From Halopiger djelfimassiliensis (GTDB lineage Archaea; Halobacteriota; Halobacteria; Halobacteriales; Natrialbaceae), in assembly GCF_000455365.1 (NCBI RefSeq), contig NZ_HG315684.1, forward strand, positions 321,789 to 385,788: a stretch of 64,000 nt of DNA, written 5' to 3'. Positions 13,105 to 57,115 of the stretch are shown one piece after another. The notes beneath the pieces are model-generated. The model worked only from the letters and a program-made list of their open reading frames with translations. It was not told the DNA's origin and made no database searches. The position numbers and the translations under genes are program-made. Each line of letters opens with the position of its first letter. Position 1 is the stretch's first letter.

Positions 13105-13534
13105 ACTGCGTGCATACCAAACCTCCTATTTAATTCCTGCAGAATACGCCGCGTCGGTAACGAACGGCCGATCGAATTTCGGGCCGTGGAACTACAGCCA
13201 TCCGTGACGCTGTGGCTGGACGTCATGGGAAACATCCACCGGAAACGCCACCGAACGAGGATACCAAACGGTGAAACAGCGGTTTGAGTCGGTGTAGGGA
13301 GACGTTTCGTTCGGTACTGTAATCAGTCTTCAGGTGTCCCGCCGACAATTGCGATTGAATATCCTACTTAGAGAATTCTGGAGAGCCATAACCGATCGTA
13401 ACTTCGGAAATATCTACCGAATGTTACTTGGAATTTATCCGGTCGAAGGAATACGCTCTCACTGGCCGCTTCACGAATCCGCCTCGAGAAATCGACCGTA
13501 GCGGCCGACATCCACGACACCCAGTACCATAGCT
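13105..13534. other. intergenic region, no gene recognised
   Basis: About 430 bp between the symporter start and the repeat-containing gene. It holds the symporter promoter, and beyond that I see no credible coding, RNA or repeat signal. Confidence 0.4.
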
Positions 13535-13569
13535 ATGAGCGACGACATACCGAATCGCACGATTCAGCC

Positions 13570-13690
13570 GAAGAACCGATCCTCAACTGAAGAACCGATC
13601 CTCAACCGAAGAACCGATCCTCAACCGAAGAACCGATCCTCAACCGAAGAACCGATCCTCAACCGAAGAACCGATCCTCAACCGAAGAAC
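13570..13690 (+). repeat. 19-bp tandem repeat (6 copies plus 7 nt)
   Basis: The unit GAAGAACCGATCCTCAACC occurs six times in a row (13570-13683) with one T/C difference in copy 1, then a partial GAAGAAC. The unit length is not a multiple of three, so copy-number change by slippage shifts the reading frame of the surrounding gene. Three copies encode a 19-residue peptide period. Confidence 0.95.
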
Positions 13691-14114
13691 GCTGTTACGG
13701 GGTATCGGAACCGCAGGATTCATTGGGGCTCTCGGAACGGAGACCGTAGCGGCTCAACAGGAGTTACCGGGAACGCCGTGTACCTGTCCCGACGAGGCAG
13801 ACGCGTTCGGCAAATACGAATTCAGGCCCGACGACGAACCCTGTTCCTTCGATCCGACACCGGATCAGGGGCAAAACGTCGTCGAAATTCTCGACTATCG
13901 GAATAAACCCGGTGAAGAGTGTGAGCCGATCGAAGTCGATTACGCCGTCAGAGGGTCTTGGGAGGTGATAAGCATCTGTGTGTTCGGTGGTGGACAAACC
14001 GCTACGGACACCAGCCCCGCTCCGCTCACCGGAACGTTCAGCGAACCGATACCCGGTTCACCACAGCCTGCAATCAGTCACATCGTCTTTTGTGTAAGGG
14101 AAATGGTGACTGAA

Positions 14115-14222
14115 CCAGAAGAACCAGAAGAACCAGAAGAACCCGAAGAACCCGAAGAACCCGAAGAACCAGAAGAACCCGAAGAACCCGAAGAACCCGA
14201 AGAACCAGAAGAACCCGAAGGA
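14115..14222 (+). repeat. 9-bp tandem repeat encoding (Pro-Glu-Glu)n
   Basis: There are twelve consecutive 9-mers, CCAGAAGAA or CCCGAAGAA, the last ending GGA. They encode eleven PEE units plus PEG, a stiff acidic stalk. The unit is a multiple of three, so copy changes only lengthen or shorten the protein. Confidence 0.95.
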
Positions 14223-14720
14223 GAGCCTGTTACGGAACCAGAAGAGCCCGGACCACCCGAAGGAGAGCCTGTTACGGAACCTGGAGACGGCCCCGTTACC
14301 GGACCCGAGGTTGGAAAGGGAGACGGCGAGATGAAAATCGATTCTCGGATTTCCTCAGAGCTCGATCAATCCAATAAGAACGCCCAACAGGGAGCGGCAA
14401 AGAGTAGAACGATTGGCGATAGACTGAAACCGAAAGGCAAGACATCCAGTCGGAAGAAGCACAAAGACTGAAGGATTCCCGAGATTTAGCTTCAAGACCA
14501 GTCACGGGGACACTCGAACGTCGAGGGCGGCCCCTCGGCGACGGGGTTGCTTCGTTCAATCATCGGCAATTCGAAACGAGGACGTACGTCTCGGTTCCGT
14601 TCAACGTACTCCGGTAGCTACCTCCCGATCGGTGGTGATCTTGAACGAGTCGCCACGAACGCCCACTCTGGTCGATGGACATAGTGACGGAGTCATCGGT
14701 GTCGCTACGGTACCGCCATC

Positions 14721-15024: not shown

Positions 15025-15255
15025 ATGTCAGACGTAGCGCTCGACGACCGCGGTCGTCTCACGCTCCCGAAGGAGGTCCGAGAGCGATACGGGGACCGAT
15101 ATCACGTCGTTCAGCTTCCCGACGGGGTCAAACTGGTTCCGGTCGCCGACAACCCGCTCGAGGCACTCAGGGACGAATTCGCGGACGTCGATAAGTCGGC
15201 CGACGAACTTCGCGAGAAGGCCCGTGACGACGCCATCGACGAGGCCGGACGATAG
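15025..15255 (+). CDS. vapB: AbrB/SpoVT-fold antitoxin (VapB type)
   Basis: This 76-aa protein has the swapped-hairpin AbrB motif at its N-terminus ('DVALDDRGRLTLPKEVRERY'), where 'GRLTLPKEVRE' is the canonical DNA-binding core, followed by a charged helical tail that would wrap the toxin. The stop codon abuts the toxin ATG with no spacer, the normal arrangement of vapBC. The ATG at 15025 is preferred over upstream starts because it begins at the domain ('MSDVALDDRG') and lies a proper distance from a TATA box. Confidence 0.88.
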   Translation: MSDVALDDRGRLTLPKEVRERYGDRYHVVQLPDGVKLVPVADNPLEALRDEFADVDKSADELREKARDDAIDEAGR

Positions 15256-15627
15256 ATGTATGCGGAGACGGATTTTCTCCTCGCGCTCATCAAGGACGAG
15301 GACTGGCTTGGGGATGCTGCTGAAACGGTATACCGGGAACACCGTGACGAGTTGTGGACGTCCCAGTTCACGCTCATCGAACTCCTGATGGTCGCCTACC
15401 GGGAGGAACGTGATACCGAACGCGTCGTTTCGAACGCCGCCAACCTCGTCGAGGTACGCGGTGACGTGGAGACGGTCGTGACGGCGGCGACGTACGTGGA
15501 AGACCGCGGATTCACCCCGTTCGACGCACTTCACCTCGTCGAATCTAACGGCGATACCATCGTCTCGAGCGACGATACGTACGATGGAGTAGCCTCCCGT
15601 CTCGACCTGAAAACGGTCGACGAGTGA
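15256..15627 (+). CDS. vapC: PIN-domain toxin (VapC type ribonuclease)
   Basis: This 123-aa PIN protein carries the acidic metal-binding set: Asp6 in 'MYAETDFLLALIK', Glu in 'SQFTLIELLMV', Asp in 'FTPFDALHLVES' and Asp in 'TIVSSDDTYDG'. VapC toxins cleave tRNA or rRNA when freed from VapB. All key residues are present, so the toxin looks functional. The last codons and stop fall inside the 73-bp repeat shared with an upstream relic, and rfcL begins 43 bp downstream, so vapBC transcription may run into rfcL. Confidence 0.9.
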   Translation: MYAETDFLLALIKDEDWLGDAAETVYREHRDELWTSQFTLIELLMVAYREERDTERVVSNAANLVEVRGDVETVVTAATYVEDRGFTPFDALHLVESNGDTIVSSDDTYDGVASRLDLKTVDE

Positions 15628-15692
15628 CGCTCCGCAACCACTAAACGCGGCTCGCACCAATCACGTCCCAATGAGCGACTGGACCGAGAAGT
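15620..15692 (+). repeat. 73-bp direct repeat, copy 2 (working rfcL promoter and start)
   Basis: This intact copy of the repeat at 14796 spans the last codons of vapC, a TATA-like ACCACTAAAC about 30 nt before the rfcL ATG, and the first rfcL codons. The spacing suggests a leaderless rfcL transcript. Conservation of the same box in the relic copy supports its being the native rfcL promoter. Confidence 0.8.
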
Positions 15693-17161
15693 ACCGCCCG
15701 ACGACGCTGTCGGAGGTACGCGGAAACAACAAGGCCCGCGACCAGTTGCAGGAGTGGGCGGAGACGTGGGACGACCACCGGGACGCGGTGATCGTCCACG
15801 GCAGCCCCGGCATCGGGAAGACCTCCGCCGCCCACGCGCTTGCCAACGACATGGGCTGGCCAGTGATGGAACTCAACGCAAGCGACAACCGCGGGGCCGA
15901 CGTCATCGAACGCATCGCCGGCGAGGCCTCGAAAAGCGGCACGCTCACCGGCGGCGAAGCGGGCCGTCGGCTCGTCATCATGGACGAGGCGGACAACTTC
16001 CACGGCAACGCCGACTACGGCGGTTCCCGAGAGGTCACCCGCGTCGTCAAGGACGCCAACCAGCCGATCGTCCTCGTGGCAAACGAGTTCTACGACATGA
16101 GCCAGTCGCTGCGCAACGCCTGCGAGACCATCGAGTTCCGCGACGTCTCGAAGCGCTCGATCGTCCCCGTCCTGCGGGACATCTGCCGCCGTGAGGACAT
16201 CGAGTTCGAGGAGGAAGCCCTCGAGAAGATCGCGGAGGCGACGAGCGGCGACCTGCGGTCGGCGGTCAACGACCTGCAGGCCGTCGCCGAGGAAACCGAG
16301 CGCCTGACCGTCGAGGACGTGGTCACGAGCGAGCGCGACACCACCGAAGGGATCTTCGACTACCTCGATACGCTCATCAAGGAGACGGACGCCGAAGGGG
16401 CGCTGCGGGCGTCCTACGACGTCGACGAGAACCCGGACGACCTGCTCAACTGGATCGAGGACAACGTCCCGAAGGATTACGAGGGGGCGGAACTGGCCGA
16501 CGCCTACGAGTTCCTCTCGAACGCCGACCGGTGGCTCGGGCGGGTGCGCTCGACCCAGAACTACTCCTACTGGCGGTACGCGACGGACAACATGACCGCC
16601 GGCGTCGCCGCCTCCCGCCGCGAAGACAAGGGCGGCTGGACCCGCTACGGTCCCCCGAGTTACTGGTCGAAGCTCGGCCGCACGAAAGGGACGCGAAACA
16701 CCCGGGACGGGATCGCGGAACGCATCGCCGAACGCGAAGGGACGAGCGTCGCAACCGCACGCCGGGAAATCCTCCCGTACCTCTCGGCGATGACCCACCA
16801 CTGCAAGAACCGGGAGCTTACCGTCAGCATGGCCGCCGCCTACGAACTCGACGAGGCCGACGTCTCGTTCGTCACCGGCAGCGGCAAAACCACGAACAAG
16901 GTCCAGTCGATCGTCGAGGACGCCGAGGACCTGCGGACCGAGGAAACCGTCGAGCACTCGGGGACAGCGTTTTTCGCCCCCGACGACGCGGGTTCGGAAA
17001 CGGCCGCCGACGAGGGGGAATCCGCCGATTCCGACGACCGTGACCAGCAGACGCTCACGGCCTCGAGCGACGAATCGAACGCGGAAACGACGGAATCGGA
17101 CTCGAGCGCCGAGACCCAACAGCCGGACGACGACCAGTCCGGACTCAACGACTTCCTGTAG
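15671..17161 (+). CDS. rfcL: replication factor C large subunit
   Basis: This 496-aa AAA+ clamp-loader subunit loads PCNA at primer ends with RfcS. Walker A is 'GSPGIGKTSA' (about 44-53) and Walker B 'LVIMDEADNF' (101-110). Sensor and lid regions follow ('ATSGDLRSAVNDLQ'), then the large-subunit collar domain. After an acidic disordered tail the protein ends 'QSGLNDFL', a PIP-box-like motif for PCNA binding. Length and features are normal for haloarchaea. Upstream DNA has been rearranged by vapBC insertion (73-bp repeats), but the coding sequence is intact. Confidence 0.96.
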   Translation: MSDWTEKYRPTTLSEVRGNNKARDQLQEWAETWDDHRDAVIVHGSPGIGKTSAAHALANDMGWPVMELNASDNRGADVIERIAGEASKSGTLTGGEAGRRLVIMDEADNFHGNADYGGSREVTRVVKDANQPIVLVANEFYDMSQSLRNACETIEFRDVSKRSIVPVLRDICRREDIEFEEEALEKIAEATSGDLRSAVNDLQAVAEETERLTVEDVVTSERDTTEGIFDYLDTLIKETDAEGALRASYDVDENPDDLLNWIEDNVPKDYEGAELADAYEFLSNADRWLGRVRSTQNYSYWRYATDNMTAGVAASRREDKGGWTRYGPPSYWSKLGRTKGTRNTRDGIAERIAEREGTSVATARREILPYLSAMTHHCKNRELTVSMAAAYELDEADVSFVTGSGKTTNKVQSIVEDAEDLRTEETVEHSGTAFFAPDDAGSETAADEGESADSDDRDQQTLTASSDESNAETTESDSSAETQQPDDDQSGLNDFL

Positions 17162-17519: not shown

Positions 17520-18215
17520 TCAGCGCTCGGTTCCGACCGGCAACTGCTCCAGAAACGCCGCGGAGAGAGCGTCCGCCACTCCGTCGGCGAGTTCAGGCGG
17601 CGCTTCGCCCTCGAGCCGCGGCACTGTCTCGATGGGATAGCCGGTCATCCGTTCGAGTTCGGCCGGGTTCGTCCGTTCGGCGACCGTCTTCCCCTCGTAC
17701 TCGTTACAGACGACGCCGAGGACGTCGACGCCGCGGCGCTCGAGCGCGTCGATCGACAGCGCGGTGTGGTTGAGCGTTCCCAGCCCCGAGAGCGTGACCA
17801 CGACCGCCGTCGCCTCGAGATCGGCGACGAGGTCGATCACCTCGCGGTCGCCGGCCAGCGGGACCCGAAGCCCGCCGATCCCCTCGACCAGCGGAACGGT
17901 GGTTCGCTCGAGTTCGCGCTTGCAGGCCGTCAGGATCGACTCGTAGGTGAGCTTCTCGTCGGCCTCCTCGGCGGCAACGCGTGGCGCGAGTGCGGGCTCG
18001 AGGTATCTTGGACAGACCGCGGCGTCGGGATCGGCACAGGCTTCGGCGACGAATCCAGCGTCGTCGTCCGGCGGCCAGCCGGTCTGGGCGGGTTTGATCG
18101 CTCGCGCGTCGTGTCCCGCCGAGCGGAGCCAACGGGTAAGCCCGGCCGTGACGACGGTCTTGCCGACGCCGGTTCCGGTCCCGACGACGGCGATCGGTCG
18201 CGTTTCGGCGGTCAT
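17520..18215 (-). CDS. bioD: dethiobiotin synthase
   Basis: This 231-aa ATP-dependent enzyme closes the ureido ring of dethiobiotin from 7,8-diaminopelargonate and CO2. It shows the P-loop 'VVGTGTGVGKTVVTAGL' (about 9-25), the substrate-binding 'AIKPAQTGW' and 'VPLVEGIGGLRVPL'. It overlaps bioF by 4 bp (ATGA), so translation is coupled, and it is the last gene of the leftward biotin operon. Confidence 0.94.
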   Translation of the reverse strand: MTAETRPIAVVGTGTGVGKTVVTAGLTRWLRSAGHDARAIKPAQTGWPPDDDAGFVAEACADPDAAVCPRYLEPALAPRVAAEEADEKLTYESILTACKRELERTTVPLVEGIGGLRVPLAGDREVIDLVADLEATAVVVTLSGLGTLNHTALSIDALERRGVDVLGVVCNEYEGKTVAERTNPAELERMTGYPIETVPRLEGEAPPELADGVADALSAAFLEQLPVGTER

Positions 18216-19426
18216 AGGAGTCCGACCTCCTCGCCCGCGGCCTGAAACGCCTCGAGACAGGCGACGATGTCGTCCTGTTCGTGGGTCGCCATCGGGGCGA
18301 CCCGGATTCGACTGGTTCCCTCCGGTACCGTCGGCGGTCTGATCGCCGGCGCGATGACGCCTCGGTCCCGAAGCCCGTCGGCGAGTGCGAGGGCATCACG
18401 TCGGTCCCCGACGAGGACGGGGAGGATCTGTGACTCCCCGGCGATTTCGAATCCAAGCGATTCGAGTCCGTCCCGGAGGTGGGCGACGTTCTCCCAGAGC
18501 CGTTCGCGGGCATCGCTGTGCCGGGCGAGATGCAGCGCTTCGCTGGCGGCCGCGGCCGCCGGCGGCGTCAGCCCCGTCGAGAAGACGAACGACCGCGCGT
18601 CGTTGACCAGACACTCGACCAACGCGGCGCTACCGGCGACGTAGCCGCCCTGACTCGCAAGCGCCTTCGAGAGCGTCCCCATCTGGACGTGGATCCGATC
18701 CTCGAGTCCCTCCGCCTGAACGACGCCGCCGCCGGTAGCGTAGAGGCCAGTCGCGTGGGCTTCGTCGACCATCACCCACGCGCCGAACTCCTCGGCGGCA
18801 TCGCAGATAGCGCCGAGGGGCGCGACCGTCCCGTCCATGCTGAACACCGAGTCCGTGACGAGCAGCCACGACTCGTCCTCGTCGGTCGAATCCGACCGGG
18901 CGGCTCGCGTTTCCAGCTTCGACCGCAGGCTCGCCGCGTCGCAGTGATCGTATACGACGATTTCGGCACCCGAGAGCCGACAGCCGTCGACGATGCTCGC
19001 GTGGTTCAGTTCGTCCGAGAAGACGACGTCCGGCTCGAGCGCAGCGATCGTCCCGACGTTCGCGGCGTAGCCCGAAGAAAACGTCAGGGCTCGCTCGGTC
19101 CCTTTGGTCTCGGCCAGCAGTCGCTCGAGGTCCCGATGGGCCAGCGTGTCCCCGGTGACCAGCCGGCTCGCACCCGCGCCCGTTCCGACGGTCGCGGCGG
19201 CCTGTCGGGCCGCGTTCTGGACGCGCTGATCGGCGGTCAACCCCAGGTAGTTGTTCGAGGCAAACACCAGCACCTCGTCGGATTCGAGCACCGGGAGGTC
19301 ACCGCCCGAGGGAGCCGCAAAATATCCTCGCTCCGCGACCCGGTCGACGGGCGAGAGCGATCGTTTCAGTTCGTTCTCCTCGAGCGTCCCGAGCCGGGCC
19401 CCGAGGTCGAACCCGCGGTCTTCCAT
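18212..19426 (-). CDS. bioF: 8-amino-7-oxononanoate (KAPA) synthase
   Basis: This 404-aa PLP enzyme condenses alanine with pimeloyl thioester. Motifs are 'NNYLGLTADQRVQNAA', 'LTFSSGYAANVG', 'VMVDEAHATGLYA' and the PLP-lysine segment 'MGTLSKALASQGGYV'. The ATG at 19426 gives 'MEDRGFDLGARLGT', close to the family N-terminus; a longer frame upstream has no family similarity. It overlaps bioD by 4 bp. About 190 bp separate it from bioU upstream, the largest gap in the operon. Confidence 0.93.
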   Translation of the reverse strand: MEDRGFDLGARLGTLEENELKRSLSPVDRVAERGYFAAPSGGDLPVLESDEVLVFASNNYLGLTADQRVQNAARQAAATVGTGAGASRLVTGDTLAHRDLERLLAETKGTERALTFSSGYAANVGTIAALEPDVVFSDELNHASIVDGCRLSGAEIVVYDHCDAASLRSKLETRAARSDSTDEDESWLLVTDSVFSMDGTVAPLGAICDAAEEFGAWVMVDEAHATGLYATGGGVVQAEGLEDRIHVQMGTLSKALASQGGYVAGSAALVECLVNDARSFVFSTGLTPPAAAAASEALHLARHSDARERLWENVAHLRDGLESLGFEIAGESQILPVLVGDRRDALALADGLRDRGVIAPAIRPPTVPEGTSRIRVAPMATHEQDDIVACLEAFQAAGEEVGLL

Positions 19427-19615
19427 TGAAGTAAAGGGTGTCGTTGCCGTGGTTTCACTTTCACGGTTCCGATCAGGACGGATCAGCCGCCGGTGGACGG
19501 CCACAGCAGCCGCTGCCGTCCGTGGTCGTCTCGTGTCCGGACGGGGCCAGTATCGTCCTGCACGTCGTCCGATCGCCCGGGCCCGAAACCGCCTCGAGCC
19601 GCGGTGGCGTCGCTC

Positions 19616-54559: not shown

Positions 54560-57115
54560 TTACTCCTGACGGCGCAGTGCCAGCATGGCAGCTGCGAGGA
54601 GTGCAACGAGCGCGACAGCGACGCCGAAGCCGGGCGTTCCGTCGTCGCCTTCGTCTTCGCCGCCGTTTTCGTCGCCGTTCTCGGCACCGTTTTCGTCGCC
54701 GTTTTCGTCGCCGTTTTCGTCGCCGTTCTCGGCACCGTTCTCGTCGCCGTTCTCGGCACCGTTCTCCTCACCGTTCTCGACGCCGTTCTCCTCACCGTTC
54801 TCGTCGCCGTTCTCGGCGACCTCTTCGGTGAAGACGGTGTCGATGGAGTCGATGCCGCTACTGAGAGCACGGAAGGTCGTCTCAGCAGTGTCACCTTCGG
54901 ACTGGTCACTGTAGTCTGCGGTCAGCGACCAGGAGCCGTCGCTTTCGATCTCGACGTCCTCGTGGGTGTCGAAGAAGGACGGCGAGACGCCGCTGTCGGA
55001 GGCCATGCGGACGCTGCTGTCCGTACCGGGTGCGACGTTAGTCATCCCGGCGACTTCGGCCTCTTCGGAGGCAACGACGACGAGTTCGTCGTTCTCGTTG
55101 AGGTTGTCGAACGTCACTTCGGGTTCGACGATGGTGAAGTCCGTCGCGATGGACTCGGTCGAGTCAGCGCCGAAGTACGGGTAGGCCGCACCGTCAGCGC
55201 CTTCGCTACTGTCGAAGTGGTAGCGTTCACTGTCGTCGGTTTCGTATTCGAGGTCGGCAGTGAACTCGGTACCGGTTTCGAGGCTTCCGTCCCAGGCACT
55301 GGTCGAGCTGGTGTCGACGACCACGTAGAGTGCGCCCTCGTCGTTGTCGACGAAGACGTAGACATCGCCCGCGTCAGCGCCTGCCAGATCGAGTGTCGTC
55401 GGGTCCTGGTTGCCGACTGCGTCGTCGGCCGCGACCTCGAAGTTGATCCCTTCGCTTTCCCACGAGTTGCTGTTCACGAGCGTATCGAGGGCGCTGGCTT
55501 TGACACCGTCTTCGAGGATGTCGACGCCGTCGCCGGAGGCGGCACCGAGTGCGCCGATGAAGCCGCTCGCCTCGGCCTCGATGACCAGGCGGTCGCCTTC
55601 GGCGATGTCGGTGCGCTCGGTCAGCGTAACCTCGTCACCGAGGAGCTCTGCAAGGTCGTCTTCGTCGGCAGGATCCGACGGAGCGACGTGGGTTTCGATG
55701 GCGCCGAGTTCGGGTTCGACCAGATCGATCGTCGCCTGGTCGATCTCGTTTGCGGCTTCGGATTCGCCGTCGGCGTTGACGACGAACGTCCCGTCCGCGT
55801 CGGCGGTCATCGTGTAGTCAGTCGGCTGCAGCGGACGGACGAGCTGGAACTCCTCGTCGCTGGTTCCGTCCTGCCAGTTGCCCGCGTTGTTGATCAGGCC
55901 GAGCTCTTCGAGGTAGTCCCCGAAGTCGGTCCCGGCACCGGCGAGCAGTTCGCCGTCCTCGTTTTCGAATCGGACGGCGTCCGCGTTGAGCGAGTTGTGG
56001 ACGATGCTTGCGACGTCGTCCTCGTCGGAGTGGTACACGTCCTCGGCGCTGTTCGCGTAGTCGCGGTCGCCGAGGGTGCGGGTGTTGATCCAGAAGTTCA
56101 CTTCGTCGTCGTCGTTGCCGTCTTCGACGTGGAGCACGTCGACGAAGCCGGAGTCTTCGTCACCGAACTGGATGTACGCCTCGCTCGTGTCCTCCATCTC
56201 GAGGTTGACCTCGAGGTAGTCACCGGCGGTCTGCGTGTAGACGCCTTCGGAGAAGGAGCCGCTGACGTCGAGTTCAGCGACTTCGATGTTCGCGGTCGCT
56301 TCGGCGTCCGTGTCAATCGTTTCGAAGTCGAGGGTGTACTCGCCTTCGTCGATGTCCTCGAAGTCGAGGGCCGTCTCGATGTCAGTGACGCCGACGAGCA
56401 CGATCTTCGTGTCGGCGTCGTCCTCGTCCGCGTGGTAGAGCTTGGCGTTGAACTCGCCAGCACCGTCGGCGGCAGCGCCGAGGTTGTCAGCTTCGACCAC
56501 GTGCTGGTCGCTCAGGTTCGTCCGGTCCTCGGGGAGCGCTTCGTCGGTGAAGATACTCCAGAGTTCGTCGTACTCGAGGTCGCCGTCAGCACTCACGTTC
56601 AGCGTGTAGGTGCCGCGGTTGGAGTCGACCTCGAGATCGACTTCCGTGTTCCCTTCGTTGTTGACCGAGTCCTCGGCGAACTCGGCGGTGAGCGTCTGCA
56701 CACCGACTTCGAAGGTGTCCTCGACGGACGGGTTGTAATCGAAGTCGCCACCGCGGACGAAGTAATCGCCTTCGTCGAAGCCGCTGGTGGAGATCAGGAA
56801 GCCGTTGTTATCGTCGGTCAGGTCGTCTGCGGTGAGGTCTTCGACGTGCGTGCTGTCGGTAACGTTACCGTCGGACGTCGAGGTCACCATCCGGACCTGG
56901 TAGTTCTCGGAGTCGGCGTCGGTGATCTCAGCACCAGGGGATGCGTTGACCGTTTCGCCCTGGTAGGCGAAACTCGGTGAGTATTCGATACTAGATTCCG
57001 CCGTTGCCGCGCCCGCAAAGGCTGCGGACATAGCGACGACGGAAAGGACCATCATCACGGTCAGGAACAGGGCACGTCCCTTGTCGCGAAGAGTGGGTGT
57101 AGTATTGCGTGTCAT
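54560..57115 (-). CDS. S-layer-type surface glycoprotein, PGF-CTERM
   Basis: This 851-aa protein begins 'MTRNTTPTLRDKGRALFLTV' and 'MMVLSVVAMSAAFAGAATAE', a full haloarchaeal S-layer signal, then 'SSIEYSPSFAYQGETVNASP', the start of the mature glycoprotein. Beta-rich domains with N-glycosylation sequons ('NVSADGD', 'NLSDQH', 'NVTDST') follow, then thirteen XENG repeats and the anchor 'GTPGFGVAVALVALLAAAML' plus ALRRQE. It is the better candidate for the main S-layer protein, because its composition and signal match known cell-surface glycoproteins and it has a strong-looking promoter. The paralogue at 51585 lies downstream. Confidence 0.9.
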   Translation of the reverse strand: MTRNTTPTLRDKGRALFLTVMMVLSVVAMSAAFAGAATAESSIEYSPSFAYQGETVNASPGAEITDADSENYQVRMVTSTSDGNVTDSTHVEDLTADDLTDDNNGFLISTSGFDEGDYFVRGGDFDYNPSVEDTFEVGVQTLTAEFAEDSVNNEGNTEVDLEVDSNRGTYTLNVSADGDLEYDELWSIFTDEALPEDRTNLSDQHVVEADNLGAAADGAGEFNAKLYHADEDDADTKIVLVGVTDIETALDFEDIDEGEYTLDFETIDTDAEATANIEVAELDVSGSFSEGVYTQTAGDYLEVNLEMEDTSEAYIQFGDEDSGFVDVLHVEDGNDDDEVNFWINTRTLGDRDYANSAEDVYHSDEDDVASIVHNSLNADAVRFENEDGELLAGAGTDFGDYLEELGLINNAGNWQDGTSDEEFQLVRPLQPTDYTMTADADGTFVVNADGESEAANEIDQATIDLVEPELGAIETHVAPSDPADEDDLAELLGDEVTLTERTDIAEGDRLVIEAEASGFIGALGAASGDGVDILEDGVKASALDTLVNSNSWESEGINFEVAADDAVGNQDPTTLDLAGADAGDVYVFVDNDEGALYVVVDTSSTSAWDGSLETGTEFTADLEYETDDSERYHFDSSEGADGAAYPYFGADSTESIATDFTIVEPEVTFDNLNENDELVVVASEEAEVAGMTNVAPGTDSSVRMASDSGVSPSFFDTHEDVEIESDGSWSLTADYSDQSEGDTAETTFRALSSGIDSIDTVFTEEVAENGDENGEENGVENGEENGAENGDENGAENGDENGDENGDENGAENGDENGGEDEGDDGTPGFGVAVALVALLAAAMLALRRQE
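54661..54816 (-). repeat. 12-bp tandem repeat encoding (X-Glu-Asn-Gly)n stalk
   Basis: Thirteen consecutive 12-nt units of the type CCGTTCTCGTCG (plus strand) encode AENG, DENG, EENG or VENG on the coding strand, just before the PGF-CTERM anchor. The unit is a multiple of three, so length can vary without frameshift. It takes the place of the Thr-rich stalk of other surface glycoproteins. Confidence 0.93.

Follow-up and report, generated by a model that had tools for sequence, protein, structure and literature searches.

Phase variation by repeat slippage is known mainly from bacteria, and a passage of a 2025 review anticipates that phase-variation surveys will be extended to archaea in future (PMC11868660). 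The locus at 13535-14471 of the window, by which we mean the whole 64,000-nucleotide stretch of Halopiger djelfimassiliensis DNA analysed here, raises the question of whether a cellular archaeal gene might be switched in this way. No demonstrated repeat-slippage switch of such a gene was found in the literature titles and abstracts searched, which are weak evidence on the point.

A 19-bp array separates a start codon from a Tat signal peptide

The features of the locus, all on the forward (+) strand, are as follows.

13430..13439, +, GGAATTTATC, a possible archaeal TATA/BRE-like element, picked out by eye only
13535..13537, +, ATG, the sole usable start upstream of the Tat signal, phase 2
13535..13906, +, OFF-frame product as assembled, 123 aa, Arg-rich, with no family match above cut-off
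13564..13690, +, 19-bp tandem array of six full units plus 13 nt
13680..13754, +, Tat signal peptide NRRTLLRGIGTAGFIGALGTETVAA, phase 0, aligning with the I-N/D-RR-x-x-L of homologs
13755..14111, +, mature Cys-containing domain, a predicted eight-strand beta-sandwich (pLDDT 84)
13965..13967, +, first GTG of the Tat frame, within the conserved domain
14112..14320, +, repetitive Glu/Pro stalk, a 9-bp in-frame repeat x12 and then imperfect copies
14393..14471, +, Lys-rich C-terminal tail and stop codon

TRF delimited the array at 13564-13690 with 6.7 copies, 97% match and a score of 240, the highest among the arrays of the 64-kb window. Unit 1 begins TCAGCC, unit 2 begins TCAACT, and units 3-6 are all TCAACCGAAGAACCGATCC; the 13-nt partial copy that follows them contains the RR motif of the Tat signal. 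TRF and the listing of units thus agree with the initial annotation, which had counted six copies between the ATG at 13535 and the Tat signal.

The ATG reads in phase 2 (mod 3); the Tat frame, which ends at the TGA at 14469-14471, reads in phase 0. Upstream entry into phase 0 is impossible because of its stops at 13530 (TAG) and 13536 (TGA). The phase is open from 13539, and before the GTG at 13965 it contains no ATG, GTG or TTG, only CTG at 13587 and at 13692. Other in-frame starts for the Tat frame were rejected on this ground, and the GTG at 13965 is unlikely to be a genuine start because it lies inside the conserved domain. The earlier claims that the ATG at 13535 is the only good start, and that the Tat frame has no start of its own before 13965, therefore hold, the second of them for ATG, GTG and TTG.

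Synthesis of the protein regardless of the array, either from a non-canonical phase-0 start at one of the two CTG codons or by frameshifting within the repeats, would be allowed by the open frame but is highly improbable: CTG 13692 is downstream of the RR motif, CTG 13587 is owed solely to the variant sequence of unit 2, no slippery heptamer is apparent, and the homologs start at ATG or GTG.

The distance from the ATG to the codon at 13683 is 148 nt (3x49+1), as had been calculated from the sequence. Since 19 = 1 (mod 3), the frame moves with every single unit added or removed, and a change in unit number other than a multiple of three must alter it. When copy numbers from 1 to 9 were built in silico, the full protein was obtained only at n=2, 5 and 8 (286, 305 and 324 aa, respectively), and n=1, 3, 4, 6, 7 and 9 were OFF. 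As assembled (n=6), translation gives 123 aa of an unrelated frame ending at 13906; loss of one unit or gain of two would restore the ON protein, in line with the original prediction. Like a contingency locus, then, this one has a non-triplet tandem repeat within the coding region near its 5' end, whose gain or loss of units moves the gene, in silico, between continuous ON and OFF frames, and an intact, genuine gene lies downstream of the array.

The downstream frame is a member of a conserved haloarchaeal family

The sequence of the downstream frame is that of a real gene from a conserved, unnamed haloarchaeal family. The stop-free run in the Tat frame is 263 codons long, and a stretch equal to its last 258 codons is stop-free in 0.04% of sequences drawn from a first-order Markov model of matching composition. 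The window protein matched the A1 family profile, in which it is itself included, at E=1.9e-68, and in a 22-member alignment it keeps the Tat, FGG and terminal AISN-x-x-FC (AISxxxFC) motifs, as well as KYEF. It therefore has the layout by which membership was judged, namely a twin-arginine signal and, after it, the conserved domain (FGG ... AISN/H-x-x-FC). An in-frame start for the signal peptide, absent from the assembled window gene and present in the homologs whose start was checked, was treated as a property of an expressed member and not as a criterion of descent. An intact family member in the OFF frame implies that any inactivation is recent or intermittent.

The family was found in about 20 other genomes. 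By single-sequence search, five other genomes in the host's taxonomic family had a match, which in four of them spanned the whole domain, so that the distribution by this search is patchy (6/125 genomes); a profile search added further members across the order. The relatives named by a homolog query are Halolamina, Halorubrum, Natronosalvus, Natronomonas and Salinibaculum, all haloarchaea, which fits the archaeal host deduced at the outset. The window protein found no close relative in the genome contigs or plasmids scanned, and a homolog query found none in the viral contigs scanned.

Members consist of a Tat signal, the domain, and a low-complexity stalk (PEE, GDG, E/D runs) or other C-terminal region. 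Several end in a basic tail, K-rich in homologs L003, L006, L018 and L023, and some, e.g. L018 and L023, have a lipobox-like Tat signal. Homolog alignment and translation confirmed the Tat signal, the secreted Cys-containing domain and the in-frame (PEE)n stalk described in the initial annotation, and this architecture suggests a secreted or surface role. The Pfam TAT_signal model matched eight members of the family alignment weakly, and a Pfam/NCBIfam search of the domain gave no family beyond this weak signal; a sequence search of the PDB gave marginal matches only (E of 0.046 or worse). AlphaFold produced a confident eight-strand beta-sandwich, for which Foldseek returned no match at E <= 0.001; the top VIA-align score was Z 5.0, too low to identify a relative.

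The array is an outlier in its genome and family

A genome search for the 19-bp unit gave only one match outside the array, with 3 mismatches. Direct repeats spaced by up to 60 were surveyed over ~2.85 Mb of 3.78 Mb (about 75%), which yielded roughly two dozen short-period arrays, among which only the 19-bp array and one 28-bp intergenic array had a period or spacing not divisible by 3; a second coding array with a non-triplet period was not found in this portion of the genome. The coding arrays of this genome evidently keep to steps of three, a rule that the 19-bp locus breaks. The array is a real outlier, not a product of chance, and is capable of acting as a slippage switch. That its unit is free of stops in all three frames was considered as a sign of selection or design and rejected, as 51% of shuffled units are likewise stop-free.

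Two other kinds of array were seen in passing. The 28-bp array (about 3 copies; L182:16178-16272, G000 C3:496178-496272) is situated just past the stop codon of a gene for a protein with a Tat signal (15214-16158). A 12-bp in-frame array (CCGTTCTCGTCG...) occupies 54615-54842 of the window; L126:592-816 and L126:4136-4315 hold arrays closely resembling it, and L070/L071 a roughly complementary one; the 12-bp arrays of the window and L126 appear to mark a family of stalked secreted proteins.

It had been proposed that the repeat be counted in related genomes; in 21/21 homologs the matching 5' region contains no repeat. Conservation of the array in orthologs, or the presence of several such loci in the genome, would support a contingency locus without defining one, and neither was found among the 21 homologs and in the surveyed 75% of the genome. 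The phase-variation reading as a whole stood in part: the array, the frames, the gene family and the rarity of the repeat favor it, and the lack of an array in homologs and of a genome-wide set of such loci weighs against it.

A rival explanation is recent loss of function, in which chance expansion of the array knocked out a dispensable gene whose frame has yet to decay, with no selected switching. Frames are broken in three other members of the family, none of which has an array. In Halolamina rubra CBA1107, which carries another family copy (L185), the second copy has a single frameshift before AISNLQFC and no repeat nearby (L192:2760-2830, NZ_BBJN01000005.1). In the metagenome-assembled genome QS_4_69_31 (PXRP01000055.1) the frame is broken at a G7 tract (L190:2772-2778), by error or homopolymer slippage, and in Halorubrum yunnanense Q85 the frame changes several times between Tat signal and domain (L191:2340-2510/L019), a mark of either a decayed gene or poor draft sequence. 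The family is thus dispensable or error-prone, and decay is a serious rival. The patchy distribution of the family and the codon usage of the Tat-frame gene, which is atypical for the genome, point the same way. By the criteria of GeneTack, a frame break confined to one genome is more often an indel or a sequencing error (PMC3711429), and the copy number of the 19-bp array is known from a single genome, with no congener among those compared. Loss of function nevertheless has to accommodate a Tat frame without stops and with every family motif kept, four identical units, which suggest ongoing expansion rather than a single indel, and the lack of a non-triplet array in any other surveyed coding sequence of the genome. 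We regard it as a fair possibility, less likely than not and second to a slippage switch.

Proposed origin of the array

A gene whose product is a predicted surface protein with a Tat export signal, a beta-sandwich domain and a stalk may have acquired a slippage-prone 19-bp minisatellite in the n-region of its signal peptide. The conserved Tat codons CTCAACCGAAGAACG (L-N-R-R-T) lie in the partial copy, and a near copy of them, TTCAGCCGAAGAACC, in unit 1; the starting point was probably an imperfect 19-nt-spaced repeat already holding these 'LNRRT' codons. The two-unit form is in frame and has 23 residues before NRR; the n-regions of homologs are close to this in length but somewhat shorter, most having about 6 to 18 residues when counted from the nearest ATG, and homologs with a checked start open in frame with a short n-region. 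Of the possible ancestors, the two-unit form would be the most natural. Growth from two units to six probably occurred by replication slippage or unequal recombination, and the identity of units 3-6 implies that the expansion was recent. The gradient among the units suggests a stepwise path; growth by single units would have passed through OFF (3), OFF (4), ON (5) and OFF (6), the gene surviving throughout.

A slippage switch as the leading explanation

A working slippage switch is the leading single explanation of the locus, to which we assign a probability of roughly 0.4. The locus would act mechanistically like a phase-variation (contingency) switch; slippage in vivo, its reversibility, the surface location of the product and the origin of the array are the parts of this account that we infer. 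Archaeal replicative polymerases slip in vitro on direct repeats in a template with a hairpin (PMC4134008). A DNA hairpin as an aid to slippage was rejected for the 19-bp array, whose single strand folds worse than shuffled sequences (z = +2.5), so that there is no hairpin to help.

The assembled copy number itself bears on the explanation. The exactly periodic tract inside the array covers 102 nt (13589-13690), and array k-mers are repeated up to k=83, so that a short-read assembly with common k cannot fix the count, which may be wrong. The array could then be real but mis-sized, with a true count of 5 or 8 and the gene simply ON. That the genome was assembled as six contigs and that the majority of homologs have an intact, in-frame gene would suit such an error. 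The variant 5' units, however, show no blind collapse, and the count would be reliable if derived from long reads or from k of 84 or more. We consider mis-sizing unlikely.

The slippage switch would also have to operate in a cell that is probably polyploid. Studied haloarchaea are polyploid, and gene conversion equalises their genome copies (PMC4056108). Under these circumstances the turning of a single copy from ON to OFF would be masked, whereas a turn from OFF to ON would show at once; the latter would be dominant and immediate and the former dependent on gene conversion. Polyploidy, which the initial annotation had not taken into account, would thereby make ON/OFF switching in haloarchaea less clean. 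The fuller proposal, of a selected, reversible archaeal switch that has the Tat export motif encoded within its repeat unit and controls a secreted surface protein in a polyploid cell, is rather doubtful. The locus offers a concrete test of copy-number variation with one amplicon, and, if the array varies, it would allow study of how stochastic switching operates in cells that may each carry many genome copies equalised by gene conversion.

Comparison with known switches

An example of a bacterial contingency locus is mod of Haemophilus influenzae, with AGTC repeats in its coding region (PMC3711429). The window locus resembles such loci in having a non-triplet coding repeat whose gain or loss of units sets ON and OFF, and in its predicted product, since those of bacterial contingency loci are often secreted or surface exposed. 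It differs in that its unit is a 19-bp minisatellite and not a few bases, that the unit encodes the twin-arginine motif itself, and that the host is an archaeon, probably polyploid, and the switch a predicted one. Homopolymeric tracts at the 5' ends of prokaryotic genes, for which reversible inactivation was proposed, were surveyed in genomes that included 18 archaea (PMC2831843). The window array is likewise 5'-located and putatively mutable, but it is a 19-bp repeat, and that work offered genome-wide statistics on homopolymers and no demonstrated archaeal switch.

ON/OFF changes do exist in haloarchaeal systems, and in the two cases compared here they work by other means than repeat number. 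The heritable on/off gas-vesicle variants of Halobacterium arise via insertion elements, and phase variation in the haloarchaeal virus phiCh1 works via site-specific DNA inversion rather than repeat slippage. The phiCh1 case, phase variation of an adhesion protein as PMC8371274 cites it from Klein et al. 2012, shares with the window locus a haloarchaeal setting, but its gene is viral.

Neighboring genes

Two observations concern the surroundings of the gene. A bioF-like gene lies near the Tat-secreted gene both in the window (18212-19504) and in the genome of one homolog (G081, L003:2351-3415), in different relative orientation, and is treated as weak synteny. Downstream of the gene, at 15026-15627, inspection by eye suggests a probable AbrB/VapB-like antitoxin (from ~15026) followed by a PIN-like toxin (15256-15627).
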